This document shows, piece after piece, positions 3,540 to 37,558 of a stretch of 64,000 nucleotides of DNA. Every line of letters starts with the position of its first letter. The first letter of the stretch is position 1. The notes under the pieces were generated by a model, which saw only the letters and a program-made list of their open reading frames with translations, was not told the origin of the DNA and ran no database searches. Origin of the DNA: a bacterium (lineage in GTDB: Bacteria > Pseudomonadota > Alphaproteobacteria > Sphingomonadales > Sphingomonadaceae); contig JAVBXL010000205.1 of NCBI GenBank assembly GCA_030824575.1, positions 52,350 through 116,349 of the forward strand, in the 5' to 3' direction. The position numbers were made by a program, and so were the translations under genes.

Positions 3540-5501
3540 TCAACTTAACGTCGGTCCCGATCGACCACGACCGATCTGCCAGCTGATGCCGTCGGTTCGC
3601 ATGACGCCCGCAGCCGTCCTGCCAATATTGCGTTCAAGTACGTCGCGCCATGGCACCAGCGTAAAATCCCGCGACCGCTCGACAACCGCGTAGCTGCCGC
3701 TTTCGAGATCAACACGACGCGCAATCACGCCCTCGATGCGCTCGCCCATTCGGGGCGGCTCGAACGGCTTGCCGAGCCGGTCTGCGAGCCCCTTCGCGGT
3801 GTCGTGAAGTTCGCGGTGGCGCAGCGCGCCCACCGCGCCATCGCGCAGCCGAAATTTCCCGCGCTCTTCGCTGGCGAGTCGTTGCTCGATCAGCCATTGC
3901 CGCCGAGCTGCGAGCGCTGTCCTGACCTCGCGGCCAAAACCGATGTCGCGCGGGGCATGCGCGGCGCCCTCGATTTCGCGATCGAGCCAAGTCGGGGCAT
4001 CCCTCGACGGAAGTTCGGCAAGAGGCGTCCGGGACAGCACCGAAAGCGTCACCGGTCGATCACGCTGCTGGCGTTGGGCAAAGGCTTCCGCCTGCGCTAG
4101 GTGATCGTCGGAAATCTCCCAACTTCCGTCCGCCAGCCGCTCGGGCCCGGCTCCGGCGCGCCGCATCGCCTCCAGCCGGCGCACGTGGCTCGTCGCGAAC
4201 GCCTCGCTGGCGCTGGGATCGTGCGCCAAGTGCAGGTCGACCGAATAGCGGCCGCCATTGGCGCGGGCGATGGCAGCGACCGTCCGATCCGCCTGTGTCG
4301 CCGACAGTTTGGTCGGCTCGATCCTGATCGTCGCGCCTTCGGGCGCGCTGGGCGTTCCGTCGCCACGTCCGACATCAACGTAATGGACGCGGCCATCGGT
4401 GCCATCGATCATCAGGTAATGGCGGTCGCGATGCTCGTCGGAAAATCCACGATGGATCATGCGGCCGACGATCGGTTCGGAGAGCGTCGTCGTGACCACC
4501 TGCTCGACCCCGGCGCGGTCCAGCCGGCGTGCGGTCAACTCGCGCTGCATGAGGCGGACGATGTCGCCGCGCTCACCCATCCGGCGCAGCGTGTCCTCCA
4601 GCCCCTCCGCAAGCCGATAGCGACCGCCGCCGATGTCCTCGGCCAGATCCATGGCCTTGAGTTTGCGCAAGCGCCCCGCCGCGACCGATTGCTGGAGTGG
4701 GTCGTTGTCCGCAGCTGACACTTCGCGCTCGCCGTCCATGCGGCGCAGCAATCGCCGGTCGATTGCAGTGAGGCGCTCCTGGTCGACATCGTGGCGCAGA
4801 CGCGCCTCGATTTCCTGGTCCGTGCGAGGGCCCAAGTCGAGCGTCACCAGTTCCGATGCGCGCTCGCGCAGCCCGTGTGCGATATACTCACGAGCGATGA
4901 TGAGATTGTCGCCGCGATCATCGACGCCGCGCAGGACTATATGGGTGTGCGGACGCTCGGTGTTGAAGTGATCTACCGCCACCCAGTCGAGCTTCGTGCC
5001 TAGGTCCTGCTCGACCTGTGTCATCAGCCGTCGGACATAAGGCTTGAGGTCGGGATATTCGGCACCGTCCTCGGCCGAGACGATGAAGCGGAACTGGTGG
5101 CGGTCGCCGGCCGTGCGCTTGAGGAAATCATCTCCATCCGCGCGGTCGGTTTCCGGGCCGTAGAGTTCGCCCGGTAGCCCCTCGCGCGTCACCCCGTCGC
5201 GCTGGATGTAGCGCATGTGCGCACGGGCAACCTGACCCGCCTTGCCTTGGAGACGGATCAGGCTCGCCTTGACCACCGCGCGGCGACCGCGGAATCCAGC
5301 AAGCCGGTCGCGGCTCGACAGGAGCCGGCCCATGCTCGCGCCGCGCCCGATCCGGCTGCCATCGAACCGGCGCGAGCGGACGCCGGTCCTGGTGCCGGCA
5401 AGCCGGGCGGCAGCAAGGATGCGCCCGCCATATTTGACGACCTTCTTGCCGTCCTTGCCGCGCTTGCTGCCGAGCCTGGGCTTGAAGTCGTCTTCAGACA
5501 T
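3540..5501 (-). CDS. Relaxase/mobilization protein (DUF3363, VirD2/RlxS-like)
   Basis: FIVSAEDGAEYPDLKPYVRRLMTQVEQDLGTKLDWVAVDHFNTERPHTHIVLRGVDDRGDNLIIAREYIAHGLRERA is the MOBP-type histidine motif region. Start taken at MSEDDFKPRLGSKRGK. Confidence 0.9.
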   Translation of the reverse strand: MSEDDFKPRLGSKRGKDGKKVVKYGGRILAAARLAGTRTGVRSRRFDGSRIGRGASMGRLLSSRDRLAGFRGRRAVVKASLIRLQGKAGQVARAHMRYIQRDGVTREGLPGELYGPETDRADGDDFLKRTAGDRHQFRFIVSAEDGAEYPDLKPYVRRLMTQVEQDLGTKLDWVAVDHFNTERPHTHIVLRGVDDRGDNLIIAREYIAHGLRERASELVTLDLGPRTDQEIEARLRHDVDQERLTAIDRRLLRRMDGEREVSAADNDPLQQSVAAGRLRKLKAMDLAEDIGGGRYRLAEGLEDTLRRMGERGDIVRLMQRELTARRLDRAGVEQVVTTTLSEPIVGRMIHRGFSDEHRDRHYLMIDGTDGRVHYVDVGRGDGTPSAPEGATIRIEPTKLSATQADRTVAAIARANGGRYSVDLHLAHDPSASEAFATSHVRRLEAMRRAGAGPERLADGSWEISDDHLAQAEAFAQRQQRDRPVTLSVLSRTPLAELPSRDAPTWLDREIEGAAHAPRDIGFGREVRTALAARRQWLIEQRLASEERGKFRLRDGAVGALRHRELHDTAKGLADRLGKPFEPPRMGERIEGVIARRVDLESGSYAVVERSRDFTLVPWRDVLERNIGRTAAGVMRTDGISWQIGRGRSGPTLS

Positions 5502-5752
5502 CGGGGAAACCCAGAGTCTCGCGATTTTTGGCCAAAAATGGCAGATTTCCGCCAATCCTGGCGCCGCTGTCTCGCGGCGCGAAGCGCCAGTCTCCACAAA
5601 AAAGGATGTGCAGACAAAGACTTATGCAGGGTCGCGAGACACTGCCTTTATCTTGTTTCCCCTCTCTTCCTTCCTTCCCACCATCAAGGCTCAAAAAAGG
5701 GGGAGAGACGAGCGCCTTCCGACGCCGCCTCTCCCCGCGAAATCCATCTACG

Positions 5753-6356: not shown

Positions 6357-6968
6357 TCAATCCCGCTGCGACAGGGCGACGAACAGGGAGGGAACCGGCG
6401 TCGTGGCCGGCCGATCCGCATCACCTGTGGGTACATTCCGACGCACGACGAAGATCGACTGAGGCGAGGCTGGCCCGGCCACGACCATCGCCGGCACAGA
6501 TGCCGATGGCGCGACGCTGGCGAGATAGCCGATCGTCTCCGACGGCAGCGCACGACGCCCAGCAAGATGCTCGGCATAGCGGCCGGGGCCGGCATTATAA
6601 GCCGCGAACAGGCCCGGATAGCCGAAGCGGTCGTACATCAGCCGGAGGTAGAACGTGCCCGCCAGGATGTTGTCACGCGGGTCGTCGGGATCACTGCCAA
6701 GCCCGAGCCTAGCGCGCATCTCCTCCCATGTGCGAGGCATCAACTGCATCAGTCCGATCGCGCCAGCCGACGAACGGATCGGGCGGCCACCCAGATGCGT
6801 CCGGCCCCGGCTCTCGGCGCGCATGACGCGTTCGATCCACGCGACCGGCACGCCGAAGCGGCTCGACGCTTCGACAATGTACGACCGCCAGCTATCGACG
6901 GATTGGGCGTGCGCCGGGCTGGCGATGGCCAGCGAAGCGATGGTGAGCCATGATTTCAGCGCGCCCAT
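6357..6968 (-). CDS. Lytic transglycosylase (SLT domain)
   Basis: MRAESRGRTHLGGRPIRSSAGAIGLMQLMPRTWEEM...NILAGTFYLRLMYDRFGYPGLFAAYNAGPGRYAEHL; signal peptide MGALKSWLTIASLAIASPAHAQ. Confidence 0.9.
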   Translation of the reverse strand: MGALKSWLTIASLAIASPAHAQSVDSWRSYIVEASSRFGVPVAWIERVMRAESRGRTHLGGRPIRSSAGAIGLMQLMPRTWEEMRARLGLGSDPDDPRDNILAGTFYLRLMYDRFGYPGLFAAYNAGPGRYAEHLAGRRALPSETIGYLASVAPSASVPAMVVAGPASPQSIFVVRRNVPTGDADRPATTPVPSLFVALSQRD

Positions 6969-7537
6969 AGCAGCCGCGCCTTTCCGATGACGTCGGTGCC
7001 CTCGGTCACGCCGAAATAGCGCCCGTCGAACGATGCCGCTGCGTCCATCAGAAGGAAGAGCTGGCGCCCGCGCAGCCGCACGCAGCCCGACCACATCGGC
7101 ATCGCACGGCCTGCGCCATCGGTGACGCGGCGCTCGGCGATCCAGCGTCCGTTGACGAAGATTTCCTGCCCCAACGCGCAGACCTCATCGCCCGCCGCAG
7201 CTGCGACGCGCTTCACCAACGGCACGTTCATCGGCAGGTAGCGGCGCGTCGCGGCGAGGCGGCGGAAGGTTTCGGGAACGCGTGCGATCACCATGTCGCC
7301 GGGTTCGGCGAGACCTTTCGGCGCGACCCAATAGAGACCGATCGGCGCGCTTGCCGAGGCATTCCACACGAGGCGCGGAGTCGGCGGGAAGGCTGCAGAG
7401 GTGAGCAGGACCGCCACGCCCGTCGCGATGATCGCAATGCGCCGTCCGAGCTTTTTTCGGCGCAGTTTCGCCGCGCGAAGTGCATCGCCCCAGGCGAGCA
7501 GCGGCGCGTCCGCGCCGCGTGCGTTGCGCCCGGTCAC
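6956..7537 (-). CDS. traF: TraF-type conjugative transfer signal peptidase (S26)
   Basis: SASAPIGLYWVAPKGLAEPGDMVIARVP...VPLVKRVAAAAGDEVC...; GTG start overlaps the upstream stop. Confidence 0.85.
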   Translation of the reverse strand: MTGRNARGADAPLLAWGDALRAAKLRRKKLGRRIAIIATGVAVLLTSAAFPPTPRLVWNASASAPIGLYWVAPKGLAEPGDMVIARVPETFRRLAATRRYLPMNVPLVKRVAAAAGDEVCALGQEIFVNGRWIAERRVTDGAGRAMPMWSGCVRLRGRQLFLLMDAAASFDGRYFGVTEGTDVIGKARLLWAR

Positions 7538-7764
7538 GAGCGCGAATCCCGCGCGCCGCTGTCGCGGCTCCAGGCGTCGAGGTCGTCGATATGGTACTGG
7601 ACCATGCGGGTGTGGCGGCGAAATGCCGGCCCCTTGCCATCGCGCCGCAGCCGCTTGAGCGACTTGGGCGAGATCTTGAGATAGGCTGCGGCCTGGTCCG
7701 TGGTGAGGAAGGGCGAGCCGCGTTTCGCGCGGCCCGCACGGTCGATGTCGCTGTCGTCGTGCAT
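7534..7764 (-). CDS. Helix-turn-helix protein, candidate RdfS-like excisionase
   Basis: PFLTTDQAAAYLKISPKSLKRLRRDGKGPAFRRHTRMVQYHIDDLDAW is an excisionase-type HTH. It lies directly upstream of traF. Confidence 0.7.
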   Translation of the reverse strand: MHDDSDIDRAGRAKRGSPFLTTDQAAAYLKISPKSLKRLRRDGKGPAFRRHTRMVQYHIDDLDAWSRDSGARDSRS

Positions 7765-7885
7765 TGTGCTCTGGGTCCGAATCTGGCGGCGGCGAAAGTG
7801 CCGGCGCGTCCCCGAACCTCGCCAACCCGACCCGGCGGCGGGAGTGTCGAACCGATTGCCGGTTTCGACACCCCGGCACGCGGGT

Positions 7886-12787: not shown

Positions 12788-13081
12788 TCATGGCCGCCGA
12801 TGGGAAGCTGCGCGTGCCTGCTCGCCGAATGCGGCGATTGCACTGCGCAGTCCGGCGCCGGTGATCCACCGCGCCCGCGCGAGATGACTGTCCCAGCAGG
12901 TCCGGGCGCGCGTTGCATCCGTCACCGGGTCGATGCCGAGGATATCGAGTGCACCGTCCTGCCAGGCGATGCCGTCTTTCTCGGCGTCTAGCAGCTCGGC
13001 ATAGGTGAGCAGATGCCGCCGGTCATAGTCCAAGACAATTTCGCCAGTTGGCGCGAGGGTATCGAGAGGATCTGACGACAT
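12788..13081 (-). CDS. Small DUF2285-like protein, candidate QseM-type antiactivator
   Basis: YAELLDAEKDGIAWQDGALDILGIDPVTDATRARTCWDSHLARARWITGAGLRSAIA aligns by eye with the DUF2285 region at 13424-13933 (H-x3-R-x-x-x-I). Confidence 0.6.
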   Translation of the reverse strand: MSSDPLDTLAPTGEIVLDYDRRHLLTYAELLDAEKDGIAWQDGALDILGIDPVTDATRARTCWDSHLARARWITGAGLRSAIAAFGEQARAASHRRP

Positions 13082-13126
13082 TGGCCCTCGGCGTGCGTGA
13101 TGACCGACCAACGGCCACACGCGTTA

Positions 13127-13143
13127 TACATCAAGTTGGTGTA
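13127..13143. promoter_or_regulatory. Candidate operator 1: TACATCAA-G-TTGGTGTA
   Basis: 8+1+8 dyad with one mismatch in the divergent intergenic region. Confidence 0.65.
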
Positions 13144-13166
13144 AGAAACAGCTGAAGTCACGGTCC

Positions 13167-13183
13167 CACATCAATTTGATGTG
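13167..13183. promoter_or_regulatory. Candidate operator 2: CACATCAA-T-TTGATGTG
   Basis: Perfect 8+1+8 palindrome; core shared with operator 1; centres 40 bp apart. Confidence 0.75.
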
Positions 13184-13190
13184 AGGGACT

Positions 13191-13427
13191 GTGGCGCGAG
13201 GCATCCACGATAGTCGTTATCGCTGGGTGATCGAGCAATTGATCGAGGCCCGCAAGCGACAGGCACTGACGCAGCAGGCTGTGGCGGCGAAGCTCGGCAA
13301 GCCGCAGCAGTATGTCTCTCGCTACGAGACTGGCGAGCGCCGGCTCGACATCTTCGAGTTCATGGATGTCGCGGCCGCATTAGCGATCGACGCGCTCGCG
13401 TTGGTGGGCAACGCGCCAAAATCCTAG
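13191..13427 (+). CDS. XRE-family transcriptional regulator, candidate QseC-like
   Basis: EARKRQALTQQAVAAKLGKPQQYVSRYETGERRLDIFEFMDVAAAL; divergent from the DUF2285-like small gene. Confidence 0.85.
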   Translation: MARGIHDSRYRWVIEQLIEARKRQALTQQAVAAKLGKPQQYVSRYETGERRLDIFEFMDVAAALAIDALALVGNAPKS

Positions 13428-14150
13428 AATCGCTCCGCCAATACGCCGCGCGGACCTGCCCGGACCAAGGCGGCGGCCAGCGGGATCATCCGCCGCACGC
13501 GCGATTTCAGGTGCTCGCCATCTCCAGGCCAATCCCCACGGTAGATGCCAAGGCCGATCGCACGTTGGCTGGCGCCTGCGGCGATCGCGTCGCCGACGCG
13601 GAGCGCTTCCACCAGTCTGCCGAACCGCGTTCCTAAATCGGTTGGCGGCTCCCGACCTGACAGAAAGGCATCGAGGCGGCGGACCGACTCGAGCTGGGGC
13701 TCGAGGTTGCGACCAAAATCGATCAACGCCGAGATCCGGCGCGGCCCGTCATCGAGGGCGCCATCAAGACCGTCCAGCTGCAAGGTTTGCCGTGACAGGT
13801 GCAGGAGGACATGGCGCCGATCGCCGGTGCGCGCCGCGCGATGCCCTATTCGTGCGAGATCGAGCGCCGGACCCGATCGCGCCGGGACCACCGTCAGCAG
13901 GCGCGGGTTCGCGGCCGCCGTCCAGATCGGCACGGCGTGGGCGCAGTCGAGCGAGGGATCAACCGGGAAAGTGAAGCCCCCACACAGCAGCGAAATGCGC
14001 AGCCACGTCGTTGCCGCGCACGGTGCTGAAATCCGAGCGGTAGGCGGGATCGCGCCGCAGTAGTTCCCAGGCGAGCGCCAGCCGCCCGCCGGCGAGCACG
14101 GCGGCGTAGGCCGCCGTTTCTCGCCAGTCGGGAAGCCCGGACATCGTCAT
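13424..14150 (-). CDS. Split DUF6499 + DUF2285 gene, candidate FseA-type excision activator expressed by +1 frameshift
   Basis: ORF1 14150-13959 (MTMSGLPDWRETAAYAAVLAGGRLALAWELLRRDPAYRSDF...HFAAVWGLHFPG*) and ORF2 ending at 13424 (VDPSLDCAHAVPIWTAAANPR...GASQRAIGLGIYRGDWPGDGEHLKSRVRRMIPLAAALVRAG). They join with a +1 shift at TTT-CCC (13965-13970). Confidence 0.75.
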
Positions 14151-15007
14151 CAGTCCTGCCGATCCGCGAGGAAGGCGGCGGCCTGCGCCTCCTGGTCGGC
14201 TCGCAGCGCGTCGATCGCGCCGAGATACTCGGGGACCGATTCTCCAAGCAGGATTGACGGGCATCGTCCTTCCACATTGCCGAGATTGGGCCGGTGCTGC
14301 GCATAGCCGACCAGCGCCGCCAATTCGGGCGAGAAATGCCGTGCTACCGCCGGCGGATAAACCAGCCATTGCAGTTCGAAGGGTTTCAGCCAGCCGAGGC
14401 AATAGCTGACGATCACACCACGGCGCGGCGCGCCCGATATGTTGCCGCCACCGCCATGCAGGGTGGAGCCGAGAAACAACAGCGCATCGCCGGGCGCAAG
14501 CTTGGGGACGACCGCATCCTCCTCGGGCATTTCGCCGACATCCGGGTCGACATGGCTGCCGGCCCACAGCCGCGTGCCGCCATTCTCCTGGGTGAATGGA
14601 TCGATCGGCCACATCACGTTGACGAGATATTCCATGCTGCCCTTGGGACCGGCCCACATATCCTGATCCCGATGGGGCAGCTGCGCCGGTGCGCCGGGAC
14701 GGATCTCGACGGCCTGCGTCAGGTTGAGCGCGATCCGCTCGCACCAAGGCAGCAGCATGCGTTCAACGATCGTCAGCACCGCAGGGTGGCGGACCAGCGC
14801 CTCGGCCTGGGGCGAACGGCGAAGCAACGCGCCGAAGCGCCGGGTGCGGTGGCCATAAAAGACGCCCTGGCACATCGGCGTCAGCACGAAGGCAGGAGCA
14901 AGGTCGGCGGCCAGCACACCGATCACGGTGGGGGCGAGTGCCCCGCGCAGCACGCACATCCCATCTCGCGAGAGATCGCCGGCAGCGATGTCGATACCCA
15001 CGGTCAT
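14150..15007 (-). CDS. Phytanoyl-CoA dioxygenase (PhyH) family protein
   Basis: AQLPHRDQDMWAGPKGSMEYLVNVMWPIDPFTQENGGTRLWAGSHVDP...LAPGDALLFLGSTLHGGGGNISGAPRRGVIVSYCLGWLKP; ATGA overlaps at both ends. Confidence 0.9.
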   Translation of the reverse strand: MTVGIDIAAGDLSRDGMCVLRGALAPTVIGVLAADLAPAFVLTPMCQGVFYGHRTRRFGALLRRSPQAEALVRHPAVLTIVERMLLPWCERIALNLTQAVEIRPGAPAQLPHRDQDMWAGPKGSMEYLVNVMWPIDPFTQENGGTRLWAGSHVDPDVGEMPEEDAVVPKLAPGDALLFLGSTLHGGGGNISGAPRRGVIVSYCLGWLKPFELQWLVYPPAVARHFSPELAALVGYAQHRPNLGNVEGRCPSILLGESVPEYLGAIDALRADQEAQAAAFLADRQD

Positions 15008-15606
15008 GCCGCCAGCTCCAGCGCGCCGACATAGGTGCCGGTCCAAGCCAGCCGTTCGCAAATGTCGGGCGTGACCTCGACGCGGAACGCGCCGATCGGA
15101 CCGCCGGCGATGCGGACGGCGGGGCCGAGCGGCTCGGCGCGCCAACCCATGGCCAGCACCTCGCGCCGGAAACCCTCGGGTATGACGCCGGTGATGTGCT
15201 CGAGCCCGCGCGCCAACGCGAAGTCGGCCATCGCCGAGATCAGCGCGCTTCGCAGTTCCCTCCTGCGCGCGGCACCGTGGCGGCTGGGCAGGCAGAGCCG
15301 CGTGCTCTCCCATGTCGTCGCTCCAACCGGAACACCGGCGACGCAGAGGTGGGGAAATATCTCGCCCAGCAGGTGTGGCCGCCAGCTCGGCAGCATGCGC
15401 AGTGACGCCTCGTGCCGTCCGCTTTCGTCGATCGCGACGATATAGATGGCGTCGACGGTGTCGAACTGGTCGATCTCGAAGCGGCCGTCGACGACCGGCA
15501 CGTCCCAGTCGAAGAAGTCCACGAACTGCGCCTTGCGGTCCGCGAACATGGTTTCGAGCGCCGTTTGGTGCGCGCTCTTGGGGTAGTTCTCGATGGTAAG
15601 GATCAT
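15004..15606 (-). CDS. luxI: Acyl-homoserine-lactone synthase (LuxI family)
   Basis: FFDWDVPVVDGRFEIDQFDTVDAIYIVAIDESGRHEASLRMLPSWRPHLLGEIFPHLC...WESTRLCL. Confidence 0.93.
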   Translation of the reverse strand: MILTIENYPKSAHQTALETMFADRKAQFVDFFDWDVPVVDGRFEIDQFDTVDAIYIVAIDESGRHEASLRMLPSWRPHLLGEIFPHLCVAGVPVGATTWESTRLCLPSRHGAARRRELRSALISAMADFALARGLEHITGVIPEGFRREVLAMGWRAEPLGPAVRIAGGPIGAFRVEVTPDICERLAWTGTYVGALELAA

Positions 15607-15662
15607 GTGGTGCTCCCGTGGCTTGATGCGCCACGAGAGGAAGCAGCTTTGGATCGTCAGCT

Positions 15663-16454
15663 TTAGCGCCCGGAATCCACGGTCCTTGACAGCCGCAATT
15701 CGTCCGTCGCGATCTCGCCGGCAAGGATCGCGGCAGCCAGCAATTCCGTGCGGTCGCTCGCCCCGAACAGGTGACGCGCATCACGCATGTAGCTCTCGAC
15801 GGTGCGAACTGTCAGGCCAAGGCGATGGGCGACAAGCTTGTCCTTCAGGCCCTGACCGGCGAGCAGGACGCAGTCGCGATGGCGCGGCTCGAGCCTCGGC
15901 AGCGGACCGAGTTGCGCCGGGCCGGCGAAGCGTCGGGCCTGCTGGAAGGCGAAGGTGCCGAACGTCTGTGCGGGTCCGAGAAGCATTTCGGCGCTACGGA
16001 CACTTTTCAGGCCGGCGAAGGTGCAGGATCCGAAACAGGCGCCGAGCCTGGCACAGGGGACCGTGATCCCTTCGTTCAGTCCCTCGCGGCGACCAAGTTC
16101 AAGGGCAAGCCGGTCATGGCCATCCAGCTCGATGATGGCGGGCAGGTCCGACCACAGGAACGCGGCCTCGGCGAACAGGCAGCCACGCATGACCGGATCG
16201 CGGCGATAGCGGCCCTCGGAAACAATGCGGCGGGTGGCTCCTTCCGCATAGTCGCGCAGATCGACGGTGCCAGGCTTCGGCGCACGCAGATCCTCGTGCG
16301 TCAGGATCGCGAAGTAACGGCATCCCAGATCGTCGGCGAAGGCGCGCGTCACCGCCCGAAGCTGGGCGCGATCCTCGGTGTCGCGGATCGCGCGCACGAT
16401 GTCGTCCAGCAAATTGAACGCGCACTCGTTCCATAGCCGAGCTCTTCCAGCCAT
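15663..16454 (-). CDS. luxR: LuxR-family quorum-sensing regulator (autoinducer-binding + HTH)
   Basis: C-terminal LEPRHRDCVLLAGQGLKDKLVAHRLGLTVRTVESYMRDARHLFGASDRTELLAAAI; AGGAGG precedes ATG at 16454. Confidence 0.9.
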   Translation of the reverse strand: MAGRARLWNECAFNLLDDIVRAIRDTEDRAQLRAVTRAFADDLGCRYFAILTHEDLRAPKPGTVDLRDYAEGATRRIVSEGRYRRDPVMRGCLFAEAAFLWSDLPAIIELDGHDRLALELGRREGLNEGITVPCARLGACFGSCTFAGLKSVRSAEMLLGPAQTFGTFAFQQARRFAGPAQLGPLPRLEPRHRDCVLLAGQGLKDKLVAHRLGLTVRTVESYMRDARHLFGASDRTELLAAAILAGEIATDELRLSRTVDSGR

Positions 16455-16538
16455 GCGCAGCCCTCCTGCCGCGGCGTTGCCGCTAGCCCGGGTCCCCCTT
16501 CGCCGGTCGGTTGAACATCCTGCCCCGTTCGCGACCAT

Positions 16539-16567
16539 GACAAGGCGAGGCCGGCAAATGGGTAACG
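16539..16567 (-). promoter_or_regulatory. Putative ECF-type promoter reading toward luxR: CGTTACC-N18-TGTC
   Basis: Minus strand CGTTACCCATTTGCCGGCCTCGCCTTGTC; same motif upstream of fecI and the TonB receptor gene. Confidence 0.4.
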
Positions 16568-16713
16568 TGCCGGCCGATCAGTTCAGGTGCCAAACCGCCC
16601 CGATGGCGCGTTACCCATATCGATGCGCAGCTGGTCTAACCGGGCATTCGCCGAACCCCAGCCACAAGGATCAAACAGGGTCGGCGAAAAAAATGCGTGG
16701 GTAGCCATTTTCG

Positions 16714-16742
16714 CGTTACCAATTGTGCCGGTGCGGACTGTC
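16714..16742 (+). promoter_or_regulatory. Putative ECF-type promoter of fecI: CGTTACC-N18-TGTC
   Basis: CGTTACCAATTGTGCCGGTGCGGACTGTC ends about 41 nt before the fecI ATG. Confidence 0.45.
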
Positions 16743-16783: not shown

Positions 16784-17356
16784 ATGATCGACGATGACGA
16801 ACTCAATGCCTGGTTTGTGCGGGAGGTTCTTCCTCTCGAGCGGGCGTTGACGTCCTACATCCGTCGCAACTGGAGGGTGCCCGAAGACGTGCTGGAACTG
16901 CGGCAGGACATATATGAGCATTCGCTGATCGGCGCGCGGCGTGCGCTGCCGCTCAATGCGCGCGCCTATGTCTTCACGGTCGCCCGCAATCACCTGATCA
17001 ACAATGCCAAGCGCGCCCGGATCGTCCCGATCGACACGATGGCCGATCTCGATGCGATGCACCGTGACATCGACATGTTCGAGGCCGAGCGGGCGCTTTC
17101 CGCGCGGGACGAGTTGCGCCACGCGAAGGAAGGAATCGATAAACTGCCGCCCAAGTGCCGTGAAATCATCCTGCTGCAGAAGGTCGACGGGATGACCGAC
17201 CGCGAAGCGGCGGCATCCCTGGGCGTGTCGGTCGAGACGGTCCGGCGCCAGATCAAGCTCGGCATGAAGGCGCTGTTCGACCATATGGCAGGCGGCTCGG
17301 GGAGGATCGTGCGCAAGAGCTATCGGCGGAGCGCGGACCATGAGGTGCTGCCATGA
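16784..17356 (+). CDS. FecI-like ECF RNA polymerase sigma factor
   Basis: ARAYVFTVARNHLINNAKRAR...IDKLPPKCREIILLQKVDGMTDREAAASLGVSVETVRRQIKLGMKAL. Confidence 0.92.
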   Translation: MIDDDELNAWFVREVLPLERALTSYIRRNWRVPEDVLELRQDIYEHSLIGARRALPLNARAYVFTVARNHLINNAKRARIVPIDTMADLDAMHRDIDMFEAERALSARDELRHAKEGIDKLPPKCREIILLQKVDGMTDREAAASLGVSVETVRRQIKLGMKALFDHMAGGSGRIVRKSYRRSADHEVLP

Positions 17357-18327
17357 GGCGACAGGAAGCGATCGAGGACCAGGCGCTCGACTGGCTGATC
17401 CGCCGCAATGCGCCGGACTGGACCCAGGAGGAGCAGGTCGATCTCGATGCTTGGCTTGACGAGGCCATGGCACACAAGGCAGCGTTCTGGCGCGCGGACC
17501 ATCTCTGGCAACAGGCGGATCGTATCCGCTCGCTCGGGATCGAGCGCGAGGATCGGGCCGACGATCACGAGCCGCGTCGCAAATGGTGGCCGGCCGCGAT
17601 CGCCGCCAGCCTGATCGCTGCGGTCGGCATCGGCGGATTAGCGGTCGCGCCACGATTTTCGGATCAGCCCGCGCCGCAGGTGCAACAGGCCCGCTTCGAC
17701 ACGCCTATCGGCGGGCGTCGCGTGGTACCGCTGGTTGATGGGAGCAAGGTCGAACTGAACACGCGGACGGTGCTGCGGACGGCTGTCGGCCAGAGGAAGC
17801 GCGACGTCTGGCTGGACTCCGGCGAAGCTTTCTTCGACGTCGCCCATCGTGATGGCGAGCCGTTCGTGGTCCACGCCGGCCGGCAAACGATCACTGTTCT
17901 GGGCACGAAATTCTCGGTGCGCCGGGACAAGGATCGCGTCACGGTCAACGTGCTGGAAGGGCGTGTGCGGGTCGAAGACGGCGAAGGCACTATGGGGCAT
18001 GCCGCGATAATCACCGCAGGCGACACCGCGATCTCACACGGAGCGTCCACGCTGATTGCGGCCAAGTCCGAGGAACGCGTCGAGAGTGCGCTCGCCTGGC
18101 GGGACGGCATGCTGAGCTTCGATCAGGCACCGCTCACCAAAGTTGTGGCCGAATTCAACCGCTACAATCGCGTGCAGCTAAGCGTTACTGATACGGCGAC
18201 CGGCCGGATCCCGATCGGCGGCTCATTCCAGGCTTCCAGCGTGGACTCGTTCACCCGCTTGTTGCATGATGCATACGGGCTCAAGGTCGAACGCAGCGAA
18301 ACCACAATTAAAATCTCCAGGCCGTAG
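17353..18327 (+). CDS. FecR-domain anti-sigma/transducer protein
   Basis: ARFDTPIGGRRVVPLVDGSKVELNTRTVLRTAVGQRKRDVWLDSGEAFFDVAHRDGEPFVVHAG; DUF4880-like N-terminus ALDWLIRRNAPDWTQEEQVDLDAWL. Confidence 0.93.
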   Translation: MRRQEAIEDQALDWLIRRNAPDWTQEEQVDLDAWLDEAMAHKAAFWRADHLWQQADRIRSLGIEREDRADDHEPRRKWWPAAIAASLIAAVGIGGLAVAPRFSDQPAPQVQQARFDTPIGGRRVVPLVDGSKVELNTRTVLRTAVGQRKRDVWLDSGEAFFDVAHRDGEPFVVHAGRQTITVLGTKFSVRRDKDRVTVNVLEGRVRVEDGEGTMGHAAIITAGDTAISHGASTLIAAKSEERVESALAWRDGMLSFDQAPLTKVVAEFNRYNRVQLSVTDTATGRIPIGGSFQASSVDSFTRLLHDAYGLKVERSETTIKISRP

Positions 18328-18458
18328 TGATCCCAAAAGCTATAAAGGCTTTTTCGCCGATATCTGCGGCAGATAGTCTTCCTAGGTGATAGGGCCTCTT
18401 TATCTGGACCCTCATAGCGCGTTTGCAAAACTGCATGTCGCACCCGTCTGCAAAGTCC

Positions 18459-20594
18459 TCAATTCGCAGTTAAGGGCATTTTTGTCCTCATCGGCTTCCA
18501 GTGCTCATATTGGCGAATATCGACCGGGTCTGTGTCGTTCCGACCGTTGAACCAGAAATCGAACCATTGCAGGTTTCGATTATAAATTGTGTATCGGTGC
18601 TCCGGTTGTCTCTTAATGTGATCTTCGTCTGGAAATATATACATGGCCGATGGGCGATTATATGCCTTTAATACTCCATAACTTTCTAAGGCCATCAAAT
18701 ATTCATTGTCAGAAATCTGCATCAATATCGGTATATTGATTTTTTCAATGTTACTTTCGATCGATACATTAGCCCAAAACTTGGACTGATCCTTGTCTAG
18801 AGACGGGTAGCCCATGTCTAGGAGTTGCTTTGCCCAAGCCGAACCGCCGTAAATTTGAGTTGATTTCGGCTCTTGAAAACCCGTTGAAATTGACGCAGCC
18901 GCAAATAATCTGGGGGAATTCACCAACGCGAATTGCACCGTCGATACGCCATCACTCAGGCCGGTGATGCCTATGCGATTTGCGTCGATGTTAGCCCGAG
19001 TTGTAGCCAACTCGATGCCTTTTACCAAGGCAGACTGAACACTGCGTCGATCATTCCAATCATTTTGGTTCGAGACGCGGGCATCGAGTGCCGTCCGCAC
19101 CGTTCCATCTTTAACCGTCGTATAATAGTCAGCAGGCCTTTGCAGGCTGAGAACGGCAAAGCCTTTCTCAGCAAATGGGAATATGGGAAATTCATCTCCC
19201 ACACCACCACGGAGAAAGCCTCTGGTGAGGTACTGAACGACGATCAGCGGTATTTTGCCCGTGCGAGGCTGATCGCGGGGCAGAACTAGATCCCCGAAGG
19301 ATTCTATACCGACGTCATTGGTCCAGCGCAGGCGCTCGACGCTTCCTTTCCTCAACTCGCCGAAGGATGGGTTGGGATCGAATAGCGTCGTCAAGGCGCC
19401 GGTGTCTGTGTTGATGCGAACGATGCGCCTCGGATGGCTGGACGCTTCGTGTAGGCAGATGAGCGTGGCGGATTCCAACTGGCAACCTGTTACCAGATCA
19501 TTCGTCTTCAAGATGATGGCTGGGGCAGACCGCGTGTCCCAACTGTAGAGTTGCAGTTCGCTTTTCCCCCATCCGGCCCGCCGAAGAAAAAGGATCCTCT
19601 GTCCGTTCGCGGTCCACCACATATTGAGGATGCCGTCTGTACAGGCCGGATCGTCGCACCTTCGCCTTCGTCCATCAGCATATTGCAACCACAGGTCACT
19701 GGGCGATAAGATGCTAGCGGCGTCTCGCTGCACGATCTGAGCGGTGACGCTTTGGCTTGTCGCCGTGGAGCGGACGAGTTTTCTTGGTGATGCGTCTACG
19801 GGCACCTTCATATCTGCGGGCAGTTCCTCACTGCTCGCTGGACGAATGTTGGTTCCACTCGCCGTGGAAGAAAAGAATTCGATCGGAACGGGACCAGGAA
19901 TGGATGGGCGGGCCTCTCGATTGGGTACGAAGCTGTCATCGTATAAAAAGCCAACTCGGCCTCGCCGGTCGATCTCAGTTTTATGCCGTGCGGCTTCAGG
20001 TTCATTCCCAAACAGCAGCCTACCGCCCGGCGTCCATGCAACTTGGCGAACCGCTGTCTCGGAAGTTGTTGTGAACAGCACGGATGCATTCTCAACTGAC
20101 ACAACGCGGGCCTGGGGGGTGCCTTGGATCGATACCAAATAGGCGAGATATCGGCTGTCTGGTGACCATCGCGGACTGTTTATGATTGGCGAGCCGTTGA
20201 TCATCCGAAAGCCACGAATAGTCGGCGCGCCGATGATCAGTCCATTGCTCATATCGACAATCTGGGCCGGGGCTTGGCTTTCGGCATCGATTGTGACGAG
20301 CGCTTGGCAATAATCGTTCATCACCGGATCTGCCCGGCTTATAACGAAGGCCAGACGTGTGCCGTCAGGTGATAGCGCGAGAGGGCTTTCAGGCAGATCG
20401 GTCCCGAAGTTCGGGCCGATGTCGCGTAGGCCGATCAGATCGTTCGTGGTGACGCCGCGCTTATCCGCATGCCCATTTGCACCTTCATCAATGAGGTTCC
20501 GGCAAACTGGCGGGGTTTCAGTGGCGGCTGCCTCTGCATGAGAAGCAGCACCGATTATGCCGGCGCATGTCGCCAGCAGGACAACAGACTTCAT
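18459..20594 (-). CDS. AtxE2-family lasso peptide isopeptidase (S9 prolyl oligopeptidase-like)
   Basis: beta-propeller plus alpha/beta-hydrolase; catalytic Ser region IGITGLSDGVSTVQFALV; His region FPDEDHIKRQPEHRYTIYNRNLQWFDFW; paired with TonB receptor/FecR/FecI. Confidence 0.8.
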   Translation of the reverse strand: MKSVVLLATCAGIIGAASHAEAAATETPPVCRNLIDEGANGHADKRGVTTNDLIGLRDIGPNFGTDLPESPLALSPDGTRLAFVISRADPVMNDYCQALVTIDAESQAPAQIVDMSNGLIIGAPTIRGFRMINGSPIINSPRWSPDSRYLAYLVSIQGTPQARVVSVENASVLFTTTSETAVRQVAWTPGGRLLFGNEPEAARHKTEIDRRGRVGFLYDDSFVPNREARPSIPGPVPIEFFSSTASGTNIRPASSEELPADMKVPVDASPRKLVRSTATSQSVTAQIVQRDAASILSPSDLWLQYADGRRRRCDDPACTDGILNMWWTANGQRILFLRRAGWGKSELQLYSWDTRSAPAIILKTNDLVTGCQLESATLICLHEASSHPRRIVRINTDTGALTTLFDPNPSFGELRKGSVERLRWTNDVGIESFGDLVLPRDQPRTGKIPLIVVQYLTRGFLRGGVGDEFPIFPFAEKGFAVLSLQRPADYYTTVKDGTVRTALDARVSNQNDWNDRRSVQSALVKGIELATTRANIDANRIGITGLSDGVSTVQFALVNSPRLFAAASISTGFQEPKSTQIYGGSAWAKQLLDMGYPSLDKDQSKFWANVSIESNIEKINIPILMQISDNEYLMALESYGVLKAYNRPSAMYIFPDEDHIKRQPEHRYTIYNRNLQWFDFWFNGRNDTDPVDIRQYEHWKPMRTKMPLTAN

Positions 20595-20600
20595 GTCCGT

Positions 20601-23198
20601 TCACCAGGATTTCGAGATCGAAAAGCTGATGTAACGACCCCATGGTGAGTAATTGGCCGAATCGTATGGCGACTGGCTGACTTGGGTTGTCGCGATTACG
20701 GATGGTTTGTTGTTGAAGACATTTTGCGCGGAAAGGGAGAAGTCCATGCCGCGAAAAATCGGCGTTTCACTGTCTATTTTCAGCCTGGCGGTCAGATCGA
20801 ACGTGGTCATCGAACCGACGTCATATGTCACCGTCGCGCGTCGATCTTTCACTCCCCCGATATAATTCACGATGGGGGTAAGCTTGAAAGGCCCTTGCTC
20901 CCATGTGAAGCCGGCGACGCCCCGCAAATGCGGTGGGAAGAATAGGCTACCCGCCAGTTCGGTTTCCGGCTGTAAAGCACTCAGGCGCTGTTGACTTTCG
21001 ATATAGCTCGCATTCGCCCAAAAAGAGATATCACCCATGGCACCCAGATCGGCGTGATGGCTCAGATTGACATCGACGCCATCTATTTTCTGACGGGCCG
21101 CATTGGCATATTGACTGTAGATGATTGCTCCTACTTTCGCGGGATCCCAAGGGCCGCTAGAGTTGTTGAAGAGCAAAGCTCCGTCGAGTGCCGCATTTAT
21201 CTCATCTGCGGTCGGGTTCACGCTCACTAGATCAGCATAGATTGGATTGCTGAGCGCTTGGGTGATGTAGGTGACTGGCGTTACGATCCGATCCCGATAA
21301 CGGATCGAATAGTAGGTCACCTCGATCTTCGAATTGGGTGAGAATGCAGGCTTAAGTATCACGGACGCCGTCCAGTTCGTGGATCGCTCCGGTTTCAAAT
21401 CAGGATTTCCGCCACCGCTGTACAAGCCTACAGTTCCTGCGGGGAAGCCAATTCCGCCAAAGACTCCAATGTTGTAGACGCTTGCGCCTCGTACGCTATG
21501 CAACTGGTAAAGCGTGGGCGCTTTGAAGGATTTGCCCCATGAGAGTTTGAAGGTCACGCCATAGCCAGTCGCCAGAACGGCACCAAGCTTAGGTGTCGCC
21601 ACATCTCCTATACCCGGATAATCTTCATATCGAACCGCGCCGTTCAGAATTAGGGACTGGACGAGCGCACCGTCCTCTTCCGACCGGACAATAGGAGCAT
21701 TAATCTCCAAGAAACCGTAACGGTTGTCCTGGCTTGCTTCAACGCTCTGACCATTATCTACAAGCCGATTATATGAATGCAGATAATTTTTTCGATAACC
21801 CCCGCCAAGCGCGGCCTTAACTGGCCCAGCCCCGAGATCGAGCAGCGTGCCTTTGGCGGTGCCTTCAATACTAAATGCCCTGTTGCAATAGCAAAGTTCG
21901 GTTCTCGACAAAACGCTGCTGGTATAGCTATCGGACTTTGAGAGAGTTCGATCTTCAGCGTAAACGCCGGAAAATGCAATATTCCAAGTGTCACTGGCTT
22001 GTATATCGATGTTTGGGGCCACGCTGACTGTTCTGGTATTAGTTAACCGGCGGAGGCCTTGTATCCGGTAATCCCCCGCTGCTGAAGACGCAAAAGCTCG
22101 ATCCGTCTTGCGCTCGCCGTAAAGGCCATCGATGCTGAACTCTACGCCTGGCATGATGTTTTGGTGGCCGCTTAGCAACACGTTGTGGCGATCAAAGCCC
22201 GGATAAAGGGTCAGACCTGGCGAACGAGTCGCTGCATAATCGCGTTGACTTGCTAGAATGGGCGTCGAGTGCGCGAAATCGTAGGCAAGGATGAAGCCGC
22301 CGGAATTCCATGTCGTTCCGCCGGTGACGCTATAATTCTGCTGTGCGTTCCCTCCATCGGTGGAGGCTCCCCAATATGCGCGCGCTGTTAGGCCGCGATA
22401 GTCCTTACGCAGGATGATGTTCGCGACACCCGCTATGGCGTCGGAACCATAAAGGGCGGACGCTCCATCGGTTACGATTTCCATCCGGTCGACAGCAGCA
22501 AGAGGAATAGCCGAAATATCGATTGACTGAACCGCCGTGTTGAAAGCCAGCCTGTGGCCATTGAGCAGGGTGACGGTCGCATCGGACCCCAGACCACGAA
22601 GATTGATTGAGGTGGCTCCTCCCAGATTGCTGCCGACGCTTTCTGGGACGTTCTGACCGATTCCCGGATTTTGGCCCGCACCTGAAGCAACAGGCAACGC
22701 CCTGACAGCTTCGGCGAGACTGTTGTGACCATTATCAAGCATTCGCTCCCGGCTGATGATTTGCGTAGGGGAAGGGGAAACAACCCCTGCGATCAGCGAA
22801 CCTGTAACAACGATTTCAGCGCTCTCGTCTTTGGACGATGCACCTCCAGATGCCGATTTTCGTAATGATGCAATGCTCTCATCGGCGTTTTGGCCGTTTC
22901 CCGCTTTCACAATTGCGACGAGATTACCATCGACTTGGGTTGTGAACCCACTGCCCGCCAATAGATTGGCGAGCGCAGCATCGGCTGAAAGTGGCCCGCG
23001 TGCGCCCGGTGAGCGCGCTGAGCGTACTTGATCGGCGCGATAGACCACTTGCCGTCCAGATTGTTGGACATAGGCATCAAGCGCGACCTTTAGCGAACCC
23101 GCAGGTATCCTATATTCGCGGGTCTGCGCTGCCGCAGGTGCCGCAAGTGCCACGATACAGGTGCTGGTTGCAAATACCGCTGCGAGTGTCCGAATCAT
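20601..23198 (-). CDS. TonB-dependent receptor with N-terminal STN signalling domain
   Basis: STN region YRIPAGSLKVALDAYVQQSGRQVVYRADQVRS...GSGFTTQVDGNLVAIV; plug GGATSINLRGLGSDATVTLLNGHRLA; C-terminus GRYISFSISKSW. Confidence 0.93.
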   Translation of the reverse strand: MIRTLAAVFATSTCIVALAAPAAAQTREYRIPAGSLKVALDAYVQQSGRQVVYRADQVRSARSPGARGPLSADAALANLLAGSGFTTQVDGNLVAIVKAGNGQNADESIASLRKSASGGASSKDESAEIVVTGSLIAGVVSPSPTQIISRERMLDNGHNSLAEAVRALPVASGAGQNPGIGQNVPESVGSNLGGATSINLRGLGSDATVTLLNGHRLAFNTAVQSIDISAIPLAAVDRMEIVTDGASALYGSDAIAGVANIILRKDYRGLTARAYWGASTDGGNAQQNYSVTGGTTWNSGGFILAYDFAHSTPILASQRDYAATRSPGLTLYPGFDRHNVLLSGHQNIMPGVEFSIDGLYGERKTDRAFASSAAGDYRIQGLRRLTNTRTVSVAPNIDIQASDTWNIAFSGVYAEDRTLSKSDSYTSSVLSRTELCYCNRAFSIEGTAKGTLLDLGAGPVKAALGGGYRKNYLHSYNRLVDNGQSVEASQDNRYGFLEINAPIVRSEEDGALVQSLILNGAVRYEDYPGIGDVATPKLGAVLATGYGVTFKLSWGKSFKAPTLYQLHSVRGASVYNIGVFGGIGFPAGTVGLYSGGGNPDLKPERSTNWTASVILKPAFSPNSKIEVTYYSIRYRDRIVTPVTYITQALSNPIYADLVSVNPTADEINAALDGALLFNNSSGPWDPAKVGAIIYSQYANAARQKIDGVDVNLSHHADLGAMGDISFWANASYIESQQRLSALQPETELAGSLFFPPHLRGVAGFTWEQGPFKLTPIVNYIGGVKDRRATVTYDVGSMTTFDLTARLKIDSETPIFRGMDFSLSAQNVFNNKPSVIATTQVSQSPYDSANYSPWGRYISFSISKSW

Positions 23199-23243
23199 GA
23201 TGCCCCCAATCTCTAGGCAGATTATCCGCCCACGGGAAAGTGA

Positions 23244-23271
23244 GACAGTCGAGCCCGAGCTTTGGGTAACG
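23244..23271 (-). promoter_or_regulatory. Putative ECF-type promoter of the TonB receptor gene: CGTTACC-N17-TGTC
   Basis: Minus strand CGTTACCCAAAGCTCGGGCTCGACTGTC, about 46 nt before the ATG. Confidence 0.45.
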
Positions 23272-23482
23272 ACAAACCGCACCCAGCGAATTCTCTGATC
23301 TATCGAACTTGAAACGCTCCGTATTTCGGGCGCCACAACTGCCGTTCAGGGGGCGCCACTAGGCCGGTGTCCCCAACAAGGCAGGCTGGGTCCCCAGCGG
23401 GTATCTGCCGCCAATGACGAACCTCTGCGAATTCTCTGCAAGCCCTCGGACACTAATGTCGGCACGCGGGCGAAAGGCTCGC

Positions 23483-25525
23483 ATGACCCCGACCAAACTG
23501 CTCATCGGTCAAATTCTCGTGGTACTTGCGATCGTCATCGCGGGTATCTGGATCGCAACGCAATGGGCGGCGGCACAGCTTGCGTATCAGCCAGAACTCG
23601 GCCCGCCGTGGTTCATCGCCTTCGATCAGCCAATCTACCATCCGTGGTCGGTCTTCCCGTGGTGGTATCACTTCGATGCGTATGCGCCGGTCATTTTCGA
23701 CGAGGCGGGGGCAATCGCGGCAACTGGCGGATTTGTCGGCTGCGGCGCTGCGATCTTCGGGTCGCTCTGGCGCGCGCGCCAGTCGAGCAATCTCACCACC
23801 TATGGCTCTGCGCGTTGGGCAAACCATCGTGACATCAAGGCCGCTAGGCTGCTCGGCAACCAAGGTGTCGCGCTAGGCCGGATCGGCGGAGACGATCTCC
23901 GCCATGACGGTCCGGAGCACGTCATGGCGTTCGCGCCGACCCGATCGGGCAAGGGTGTGGGCCTCGTAGTACCCACGCTGCTCAACTGGACCGGTTCGAC
24001 CGTCGTACACGACATCAAGGGCGAGAACTGGCAACTGACCGCCGGCTGGCGTGCGCGCTTCTCGCACTGCCTGTTGTTCAACCCGACCGATGCGCGCTCG
24101 GCGCGCTACAATCCGCTGCTCGAAGTGCGGCGTGGCGTGAACGAAGTCCGCGACGTTCAGAACATCGCCGACATCCTTGTCGATCCCGAAGGCGCACTCG
24201 AACGTCGCAATCACTGGGAGAAGACCAGCCATTCGCTGCTGGTCGGTGCGATCCTCCACGTCCTCTACGCCGAGGAAGAGAAGACGCTCGCCCGCGTCGC
24301 AACCTTCCTGTCGGACCCGCAGAGGAGCTTCGCCGCGACCTTGCGCCGGATGATGGCGACCAACCACCTCGGCTCGGCGGACGCGCCGATGGTCCATCCG
24401 GTCGTCGCCTCGGCGGCGCGCGAACTGCTCAACAAGAGCGAGAACGAACGCTCGGGCGTGCTGTCGACGGCGATGTCGTTTCTAGGTCTTTATCGCGATC
24501 CGACTGTGGCTGCGGTCACGGCCGCGTCGGATTGGCGGATCACTGATCTCGTCGAAGCAGCGCATCCGGTTTCGCTCTACCTCGTAGTGCCGCCATCGGA
24601 TATCAGCCGCACCAAGCCGTTGGTCCGCCTGATCCTCAACCAGATCGGCCGTCGGCTGACCGAGGAACTGCGCGGCACCGGCAAGGACGGCGAAGCCGCC
24701 CCCGGTCGCCACCGGCTGCTGATGATGCTCGACGAGTTTCCGGCACTGGGGCGGCTCGACTTCTTTGAAACGAGCCTCGCCTTCCTCGCCGGCTATGGCG
24801 TGCGTGCCTTCCTCATCGCGCAGAGCCTCAACCAGATCGAGAAGGCCTATGGCGAGCACAACGCCATCCTCGACAATTGCCATGTCCGCATCGCCTTCGC
24901 GACCAATGACGAGCGCACCGCCAAGCGAATTTCGGACGCGCTCGGCACCGCGACCGAGCAGCGCGCAATGCGCAACTATGCCGGCCACCGGCTGGCGCCC
25001 TGGCTCGCGCACGTCATGGTCAGCCGGCAGGAGACCGCGCGTGCGCTGTTGACTCCGGGCGAAGTGATGCAACTTGCGCCGACCGACGAGCTTGTCCTGA
25101 TCTCGGGTCAGCCCCCGATCCGCGCGAAGAAGCTGCGCTACTACGAGGATCGCCGATTCACCACGCGCGTCCTGCCCGCACCGTCGCTCGATAGCGATGG
25201 GTACCGTGACCTTCCCGCCGCACGGCCCGACGATTGGGCCGGACAGATACGCGGTGCCGACATGCGCCTTGCCGCCGGCAATGATACCGAAGAAGGCGCC
25301 GATGCCGGCGGTCTCGAACATGCTCGCCATCCTGCGCACGAAATCGAACCGGCCGTCGCGGTCGAGCCTGAGATCGCCGATCCGCTAGGGCTCGGCGAGG
25401 ACGATGGCGACCAGGCCGCTGAGCGCCGGGCCATGGACCGAGTGCAGCAGCTCGGCACCGCTCGCACGGTCTATGGTCTCGATGCCGCGTCTGGTCGTCC
25501 CGACGACCTGCAGCTGGGGTTCTGA
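23483..25525 (+). CDS. traG: Conjugal transfer coupling protein TraG/VirD4
   Basis: VMAFAPTRSGKGVGLVVPTLLNWTGSTVVHDIKGENWQLTAGWR and LLMMLDEFPALGRLDFFETSLAFLAGYGVRAFLIAQSLNQIEKAYG. Confidence 0.95.
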   Translation: MTPTKLLIGQILVVLAIVIAGIWIATQWAAAQLAYQPELGPPWFIAFDQPIYHPWSVFPWWYHFDAYAPVIFDEAGAIAATGGFVGCGAAIFGSLWRARQSSNLTTYGSARWANHRDIKAARLLGNQGVALGRIGGDDLRHDGPEHVMAFAPTRSGKGVGLVVPTLLNWTGSTVVHDIKGENWQLTAGWRARFSHCLLFNPTDARSARYNPLLEVRRGVNEVRDVQNIADILVDPEGALERRNHWEKTSHSLLVGAILHVLYAEEEKTLARVATFLSDPQRSFAATLRRMMATNHLGSADAPMVHPVVASAARELLNKSENERSGVLSTAMSFLGLYRDPTVAAVTAASDWRITDLVEAAHPVSLYLVVPPSDISRTKPLVRLILNQIGRRLTEELRGTGKDGEAAPGRHRLLMMLDEFPALGRLDFFETSLAFLAGYGVRAFLIAQSLNQIEKAYGEHNAILDNCHVRIAFATNDERTAKRISDALGTATEQRAMRNYAGHRLAPWLAHVMVSRQETARALLTPGEVMQLAPTDELVLISGQPPIRAKKLRYYEDRRFTTRVLPAPSLDSDGYRDLPAARPDDWAGQIRGADMRLAAGNDTEEGADAGGLEHARHPAHEIEPAVAVEPEIADPLGLGEDDGDQAAERRAMDRVQQLGTARTVYGLDAASGRPDDLQLGF

Positions 25526-25527
25526 CC

Positions 25528-25926
25528 ATGGAAAAGGTCCGCCACCAGTTGTTTCTGCCCAAGCCGCTCTCCGACCGGCTGGAAGTGCTCGCCGCCAAGC
25601 CCGGCGCCAGCAAGTCGGCGATCCTCGTCGATGCGGTCACCGCCTGGCTCAACCGCCGCGGGGCCTCCGAACTGGAGGATCGGTTCGCGATCCGGCTCGA
25701 TCGGCTGACGCAATCGATCGGCCGCGTCGATCGTGACGCTTATGTGATCCTCGAGACGCTCGCGCTATTCATTCGCTTCGAACTCGCGATCCAGACGCCG
25801 CTTGCCGAGAACGACCAGGCAGGGCGTGCCCTCGGAGCAAAAAGGTTCGAGGCCTTCATTACCCAGGTCGGGCGGCAAGTCTCGACGGGGCGTCGCACGC
25901 TCGGTGCGTCGGAGGACGGCGAATGA
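25528..25926 (+). CDS. CopG/ribbon-helix-helix family protein
   Basis: MEKVRHQLFLPKPLSDRLEVLAAKPGASKSAILVDAVTAWLNRR. Confidence 0.8.
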   Translation: MEKVRHQLFLPKPLSDRLEVLAAKPGASKSAILVDAVTAWLNRRGASELEDRFAIRLDRLTQSIGRVDRDAYVILETLALFIRFELAIQTPLAENDQAGRALGAKRFEAFITQVGRQVSTGRRTLGASEDGE

Positions 25927-26909: not shown

Positions 26910-26912
26910 CCC

Positions 26913-27254
26913 ATGACGCGTGCCCAACTGATCCGACTTCCCGGAAATCGCCCGCTGCTGATCGGCGCGGCCCTCGGCCTCGCACTGACGCTCGCCACCC
27001 AGGTCCAGGCTGCCGGCTCCGGCATGCCGTGGGAAGAGCCGCTACAACAGGTCCTGGAATCGGTGCAGGGACCGGTCGCCAAGATCGTGGCGGTGATCAT
27101 CATCATCGTCACCGGCCTGACGCTCGCGTTCGGCGAGACCGCAGGCGGATTCCGGCGGCTCATCCAGATCGTATTCGGCCTCTCGATCGCGTTCGCCGCC
27201 TCGTCCTTCTTCCTGTCCTTCTTCAGCTTCGGCGGCGGAGCGCTGATCTCGTGA
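26913..27254 (+). CDS. trbC: TrbC/VirB2 pilin-like protein
   Basis: Signal peptide plus hydrophobic segments; position between trbB and trbD. Confidence 0.9.
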   Translation: MTRAQLIRLPGNRPLLIGAALGLALTLATQVQAAGSGMPWEEPLQQVLESVQGPVAKIVAVIIIIVTGLTLAFGETAGGFRRLIQIVFGLSIAFAASSFFLSFFSFGGGALIS

Positions 27255-30746: not shown

Positions 30747-30886
30747 CCCCCCCGGGGCCGACAGGCTCGATCCGGACTCGCGACCGGCGGCGTTCCCTCC
30801 CGTCCCGGTCGCCGTCGCGGGGCGCGGTCCAGCTCCCCCACCGCGTCCCGCGACACCTCTTCAATCGCCAGCAGGAAGGCAGCCAC

Positions 30887-32209: not shown

Positions 32210-32212
32210 GCC

Positions 32213-37525: not shown

Positions 37526-37558
37526 GGTCGTTTTCCCAGCAAGGCCGGGTCGATCCGA

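Follow-up and report, generated by a model that had tools for sequence, protein, structure and literature searches.

A luxR-luxI-phyH-fseA module beside the transfer genes of a sphingomonad mobile element: a probable quorum-sensing switch for transfer

Gene content and layout of the module

The window analyzed here is a stretch of 64,000 nt from a genome of the Sphingomonadaceae (Alphaproteobacteria; assembly GCA_030824575.1, contig JAVBXL010000205.1, positions 52,350-116,349 of the forward strand). Within it, an integrated mobile element carries a block of six genes next to its transfer genes. The minus strand carries luxR, luxI, phyH and a split DUF6499/DUF2285 gene, here termed fseA; downstream of the latter lie a plus-strand XRE gene and then a minus-strand gene for a small acidic protein (Table 1). 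The FseA/QseM/RdfS mechanism is known for ICEMlSymR7A, an integrative and conjugative element (ICE) of Mesorhizobium japonicum R7A (PMC10359603, PMC8627217). A first-pass annotation of this DNA proposed that the functional parts of the R7A circuit are gathered within about 3.7 kb, and the named parts are all present, with the XRE gene filling the qseC slot.

The gene order given in that annotation was confirmed with Pfam, which matched the autoinducer synthase, DUF6499 and DUF2285 domains alike, both fseA halves scoring above the Pfam cut-off. Of the two ATGA overlaps that had been described, the one between luxI and phyH stands, whereas phyH and the DUF6499 half meet at TGATG and share 1 nt. 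The XRE gene converges on fseA, their stop codons overlapping at 13424-13427, and is divergent from the gene for the small protein. The start of luxR is most likely at 16454, judging from a start shared with the orthologous locus L051.

The suggestion that the cluster is a mobility switch gains from the presence of its target side in the same window. Because an rdfS homolog was identified, the regulators and their expected target lie together: rdfS, preceded by an inverted repeat, is directly upstream of traF and a lytic transglycosylase gene, and the window further holds rlxS, a Trb transfer system and an integrase gene at a tRNA gene. The TrbE match scores 1360 bits against an NCBIfam cut-off of 1020, and TraG is above its cut-off too.

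Table 1. Features of the module and of the mobile element, in positions of the window
Feature	Position	Strand	Evidence or remark
luxR, LuxR-type receptor/activator	15663-16454	-	Pfam Autoind_bind 1.9e-16
luxI, acyl-homoserine lactone synthase	15004-15606	-	Pfam Autoind_synth 7.2e-22
phyH, Fe(II)/2-oxoglutarate dioxygenase	14150-15007	-	Pfam PhyH 3.4e-23
fseA first half, DUF6499, frame 0	13959-14153	-	PF20109 3.9e-14; AWELLRRD motif
Conserved +1 frameshift site TGGGGGCTTCACTTTC	13966-13982 (approximate, just before frame-0 stop)	-	Layout and conservation
fseA second half, DUF2285, +1 frame	13424-13980	-	PF10074 1.4e-7 (13424-13933)
XRE/HTH_3 regulator, qseC slot	13191-13427	+	Pfam HTH_3 4e-12
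Two candidate operator palindromes, ACATCAAGTTGGTGT (13128-13142) and ACATCAATTTGATGT (13168-13182)	13128-13182		Near-perfect; chance expectation 0.01 matches
QseM-like antiactivator, 97 aa, acidic	12788-13081	-	Ortholog profile, fold match, charge
FseA-box-like inverted repeat GTGTCGAA...TTCGACAC	7844-7871		About 80 bp upstream of rdfS; sole one in the window
rdfS, recombination directionality factor	7540-7764	-	HTH_17 6.5e-12; profile of 17 orthologs matches PDB 8dgl (R7A RdfS) 6.9e-31
traF, S26-type transfer signal peptidase	6959-7513	-	NCBIfam TIGR02771 6.6e-22, under its cut-off
Lytic transglycosylase (SLT)	6357-7094	-	Pfam 4.5e-17; homology spans 6369-6968
rlxS relaxase	3540-5597	-	NCBIfam RlxS 937 bits, cut-off 850
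TraG coupling protein and Trb genes (TrbE, TrbL, VirB8/TrbF, TrbI, others)	23414-35072	+	Profile matches
Tyrosine integrase	36299-37579	-	Pfam Phage_integrase 9.7e-22
tRNA-Leu (CAG), presumed attachment site	37703-37789	-	Adjoins integrase; single copy in genome

Recurrence of the module and its regulatory parts

Among 80 named loci gathered by PhyH similarity, three architectures were distinguished. In type A, represented by 31 of the 80, luxI-phyH is followed by DUF6499/DUF2285, XRE and QseM-like genes (luxR went undetected in one), and the module is usually followed by ArdC, ParB and TraF. Type-A PhyH proteins form one clade (support 90/90); when a fused and a rearranged relative are included, the support is 100/99. 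Type B has the order luxR-luxI-phyH-GntR, and in many cases an fseA-like gene is transcribed divergently from its luxR. This divergent arrangement was seen in L084, L088, L101, L111, L116, L130 and others (about 7.4-8.1 kb), and the GntR gene there occupies the position of the type-A fseA. Type C corresponds to "topology T" of an earlier study (PMC4288048). Its gene X was considered as a possible fseA and rejected, as its 112-aa product is unrelated and a DUF6499/DUF2285 gene was not found next to the type-C loci; in L007 (6946-7284), this conserved hypothetical gene lies between phyH and virB1.

A survey of 401 Sphingomonadales genomes yielded 113 phyH copies, at least 98 of which have luxI within 4 kb; direct reading of 12 of the remaining loci found luxI in 10 (one a contig-edge fragment). 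DUF6499 lies within 6 kb of 39 of the 113 copies (8 downstream, 21 divergent upstream and 10 upstream on the same strand), against well under one expected by an estimate based on the overall density of DUF6499. The linkage of phyH to DUF6499/DUF2285 on which the first-pass annotation depended is thus frequent, and since the same arrangement recurs in many genomes, it is not due to chance. Departures from the pattern were also found: in L144 (6844-8259) luxI is directly followed by fseA, L145 (4736-7749) and L146 (4961-8016) carry luxR-luxI-GntR with a divergent fseA, all three lacking phyH, and L135 and L141 have phyH and luxR with no luxI.

The fseA gene is written in two frames. Frame 0 runs through AWELLRRD to VWGLHFPG and a stop codon, and the +1 frame, which reads FPVDPSLD, continues FPVDPSLDCAHAVPIW into DUF2285. 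This +1 frameshift layout, with its WGL/TGGGGG site, is present and conserved in sequence. The shift codon is TTT in 36/36 split loci with a readable motif, which, being related and in some cases overlapping, are no independent count; the next base is C in 35 and T in one. For comparison, TTT makes up 24% of the Phe codons in the phyH genes of the same loci. When the DUF2285 half alone was used as a query, no relative of solved structure was found. The same genome holds two further FseA-like loci on other contigs (G000:C114:50798-51925 and G000:C174:124739-125035), for which no luxI of their own was detected in the genome search.

A two-frame gene also invites the view that the module has decayed, with fseA a frameshifted pseudogene and the receptor degenerate. 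The odd receptor pocket described below and the second attachment site that was not found would fit such decay. However, a conserved TTT shift site is not easily squared with a broken gene; many species share the frameshift site, the pocket substitutions and the gene order, with all genes open, and RlxS, TrbE, TraG and the integrase are full-length. Decay is therefore very improbable.

The small acidic protein, taken for a DUF2285-like, QseM-like product in the first-pass annotation, gave no match in a Pfam search. As a refutation of QseM identity, this negative was overturned by comparing the family profile with solved structures: a profile of 29 orthologs matches PDB 7uqt, the "Quorum sensing master protein" (R7A QseM), with E=1e-17. 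The AlphaFold model, with a predicted local distance difference test score (pLDDT) of 90, likewise has 7uqt as its best fold match (probability 1.00, template-modeling score 0.62-0.70, Foldseek E=3e-3). In R7A, the DUF2285 domain of the activator is positively charged and QseM negatively (PMC10359603). The same polarity is seen here, with net charges of -1 to -9 in 33/33 QseM-like proteins and of +1 to +10 in 33/33 FseA C-terminal stretches, a few rows in each set being near-copies.

Both palindromes of the window sit in the gap between the QseM-like and XRE genes. Across type-A loci, the XRE slot is filled, but by differing XRE families, and the palindrome varies with the family. Palindrome ACATCAAnTTGATGT occurs in 8/8 loci of the window's XRE family and in one locus elsewhere; ATTCAnTATAnTGAAT occurs in four of the five loci of another family and in none elsewhere; and GGAACnATnGTTCC and GGAGTATACTC occur inside the largest XRE group. 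Such co-variation would be expected of an XRE protein that binds these palindromes and is exchanged together with its operator as a unit.

On the target side, FseA is reported to bind a pair of hexamers spaced 15-16 bp upstream of the rdfS promoter (PMC10359603). Most of the loci have an inverted repeat of GTCGAA/GTCGGA hexamers upstream of rdfS, and the commonest hexamer is found in 13 rdfS upstream regions, compared with at most five in 200 shuffled sets. From its position and conservation, the repeat before rdfS is presumably where FseA acts.

Receptor pocket, LuxI and PhyH

Sensors of acyl-homoserine lactones (AHLs) carry a WYDPWG motif (PMC4414361). The pocket segment of the window's LuxR aligns to RhlR without gaps, and its residues at positions 57, 61, 70, 71 and 85 are A, I, D, P and W; D, P and W of the motif are thus kept, while A replaces W57 and I replaces Y61. 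Aliphatic residues are found at both positions in 28/32 type-A receptors, whereas the surveyed type-B and type-C receptors retain W and Y/F, except in one truncated row. Since the four type-A exceptions (L074, L079, L093 and L109) branch off early within type A when PhyH is used for the tree, the change looks like a single event within the type. It suggests a ligand bound unlike an ordinary AHL, and the signal itself may be unusual.

LuxI retains its catalytic residues in the window (R24, F28, W34, D46, D49 and R70) and across the surveyed types. In PhyH, the metal ligands H112-x-D114 and H184 and the 2-oxoglutarate-binding R195 are invariant in the alignment, so that the dioxygenase is apparently intact. 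Among the three signaling proteins it shows the strongest conservation, with a mean pairwise identity of 60% (LuxI 50%, LuxR 41%), and the structurally characterized proteins related to it are fungal natural-product dioxygenases; as the structure model is poor over the C-terminal part, no active-site argument was based on it. The role of PhyH was called open in studies of sphingomonads (PMC3704786, PMC5012321).

Two ways of accommodating PhyH deserve consideration. In the first, a special form of the switch proposed below, the homoserine lactone (HSL) made by LuxI, or its acyl precursor, would be oxidized by PhyH, and the product rather than a plain AHL would be sensed by the type-A LuxR lacking W57 and Y61. 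The altered pocket, the retained catalytic residues of LuxI, the invariant PhyH residues and the ATGA overlap of phyH with luxI are all consistent with such a non-canonical signal. Yet the motif by itself did not decide ligand specificity (PMC4414361), and PhyH could have another target. Moreover, PhyH accompanies luxI in three transfer-control architectures and, in types B and C, does so with receptors of normal AHL pocket; the coupling is therefore not strict, and the pocket change is no proof that PhyH alters the signal. We regard this form as rather unlikely.

In the second, PhyH would do a separate, quorum-regulated job, such as metabolism or modification of the recipient or surface, and merely share the operon of a plain-AHL switch. 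Its presence in three architectures and its conservation above that of LuxI and LuxR would suit a constant substrate better than an acyl chain that varies; some circuits lack phyH, and earlier heterologous work on sphingomonad LuxI found AHLs from novI clones (PMC5012321). On the other hand, phyH adjoins luxI in nearly all copies read, and the receptor pocket of type A is altered. This reading stands not far short of an even chance. That PhyH modifies the signal is plausible but unproven.

Beyond the module, the divergent luxR and extracytoplasmic function (ECF) sigma factor genes are separated by a region (16530-16720) with three GTAAC-type repeats (gggtaacg, cgttaccc and cgttacc), possibly ECF promoters or operators. 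The adjoining segment, 16784-23336, encodes the ECF sigma factor, FecR, a TonB receptor and an S9 peptidase matching the NCBIfam model for the lasso peptide isopeptidase Atxe2 (705 bits, cut-off 400). The same receptor/isopeptidase set adjoins type-B luxI-phyH loci, and type-B L084 additionally has an asparagine-synthetase-like and a lasso-B-like open reading frame; in the window, neither kind was recognized in the interval from luxR to TraG. Next to the relaxase gene, 1281-3419 encodes a 712-aa protein with two HATPase domains, which is cargo.

The proposed transfer-control switch and its implications

At the level of sequence, the FseA, QseM, RdfS, RlxS and Trb parts are identified, as are the conserved frameshift layout, the operators that track the XRE family, the recurrent linkage and the pocket substitutions. 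The module is very probably the transfer-control switch of a sphingomonad ICE, working like that of ICEMlSymR7A. The two share LuxR/LuxI, a split FseA with a +1 shift layout, RdfS, an acidic QseM beside a divergent helix-turn-helix gene, the transfer genes TraF, RlxS and Trb, and presumed integration at a tRNA gene. Unlike ICEMlSymR7A, the window has phyH between luxI and fseA, a receptor pocket without W57/Y61, exchangeable XRE families, all its regulators inside 3.7 kb, and a tRNA-Leu in place of tRNA-Phe.

In the proposed mechanism, LuxI would make a signal of the homoserine lactone type, and ligand-bound LuxR would activate the luxI-phyH-fseA operon. Ribosomes shifting +1 near TGGGGGCTTCACTTTC would yield full-length FseA, which, on the GTGTCGAA inverted repeat, would turn on rdfS-traF and probably also the genes that follow. 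Excision of the element at tRNA-Leu would then be the work of the integrase and RdfS, and its transfer that of RlxS and the Trb system. The QseM-like protein may block FseA by occupying its DUF6499 half, and the XRE protein may control qseM from the two palindromic operators, thereby deciding which cells respond. PhyH, co-transcribed, would serve in signaling, where its likeliest task is to modify the signal or a precursor of it. This is the weakest part of the scheme, and we put it forward tentatively, clearly below an even chance.

Several observations weigh against this scheme. The arms of the repeat before rdfS, 15-16 bp apart in most loci, are only 12 bp apart in the window and its nearest relatives, with the same arms. 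The XRE gene is a candidate qseC by its slot, next to qseM with operators between. An inverted repeat was seen between luxR and luxI, and no lux box was established. Natural relatives (L144, L145 and L146) do without phyH. Finally, the end of the tRNA-Leu (CAG) gene has no other match in the genome: a second copy was found neither in the contig (at least 14 bp) nor in the draft genome (24-mer, up to three mismatches).

Among known systems, sphingomonad luxR-luxI-phyH clusters such as novR-novI-phyH share the gene order, and topology T also adjoins conjugation genes, but their receptors keep W57 and Y/F61 and their gene X is not fseA. Papers on these clusters make no mention of DUF2285, and a search of the open literature for FseA/DUF2285 or rdfS in Sphingobium or Sphingomonas, which did not cover subscription papers, found none that describes such a circuit in sphingomonads. 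The same order, luxR-luxI-phyH-DUF6499/DUF2285-XRE-small DUF2285-rdfS-traF-SLT, is found on pEN1 and on linuron plasmids of Variovorax and Hydrogenophaga, with PhyH 70% and LuxI 60% identical to those of the window. The linuron plasmids differ in that the module is a segment between IS1071 copies. At L005 (18540-23817) and L006 (6540-11817), on such plasmids of Betaproteobacteria, the entire switch, including rdfS-traF-SLT, lies between these copies. The text of the linuron plasmid paper mentions neither homoserine, phytanoyl nor a transcriptional regulator, and the module is not named there.

Two results go beyond the first-pass annotation: the loss of W57/Y61 in type-A receptors and the swapping of the XRE gene together with its operator palindrome. 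The analysis joins two previously separate fields, the sphingomonad luxI-phyH clusters and the rhizobial FseA/QseM switch of ICEs. In the former, the role of PhyH has been an open question since 2013; if the proposal is true, ICE excision would provide a clear readout for it. The receptor-pocket change points toward an unusual signal; that a large sphingomonad ICE clade uses a new one, a PhyH-oxidized HSL product read by an altered-pocket LuxR and feeding the frameshifted FseA/QseM switch, is a doubtful proposal. An XRE/operator pair that can be exchanged suggests a way for ICEs to replace the gate determining which cells transfer, and the capture of the module on herbicide-degradation plasmids bears on the spread of catabolic genes.

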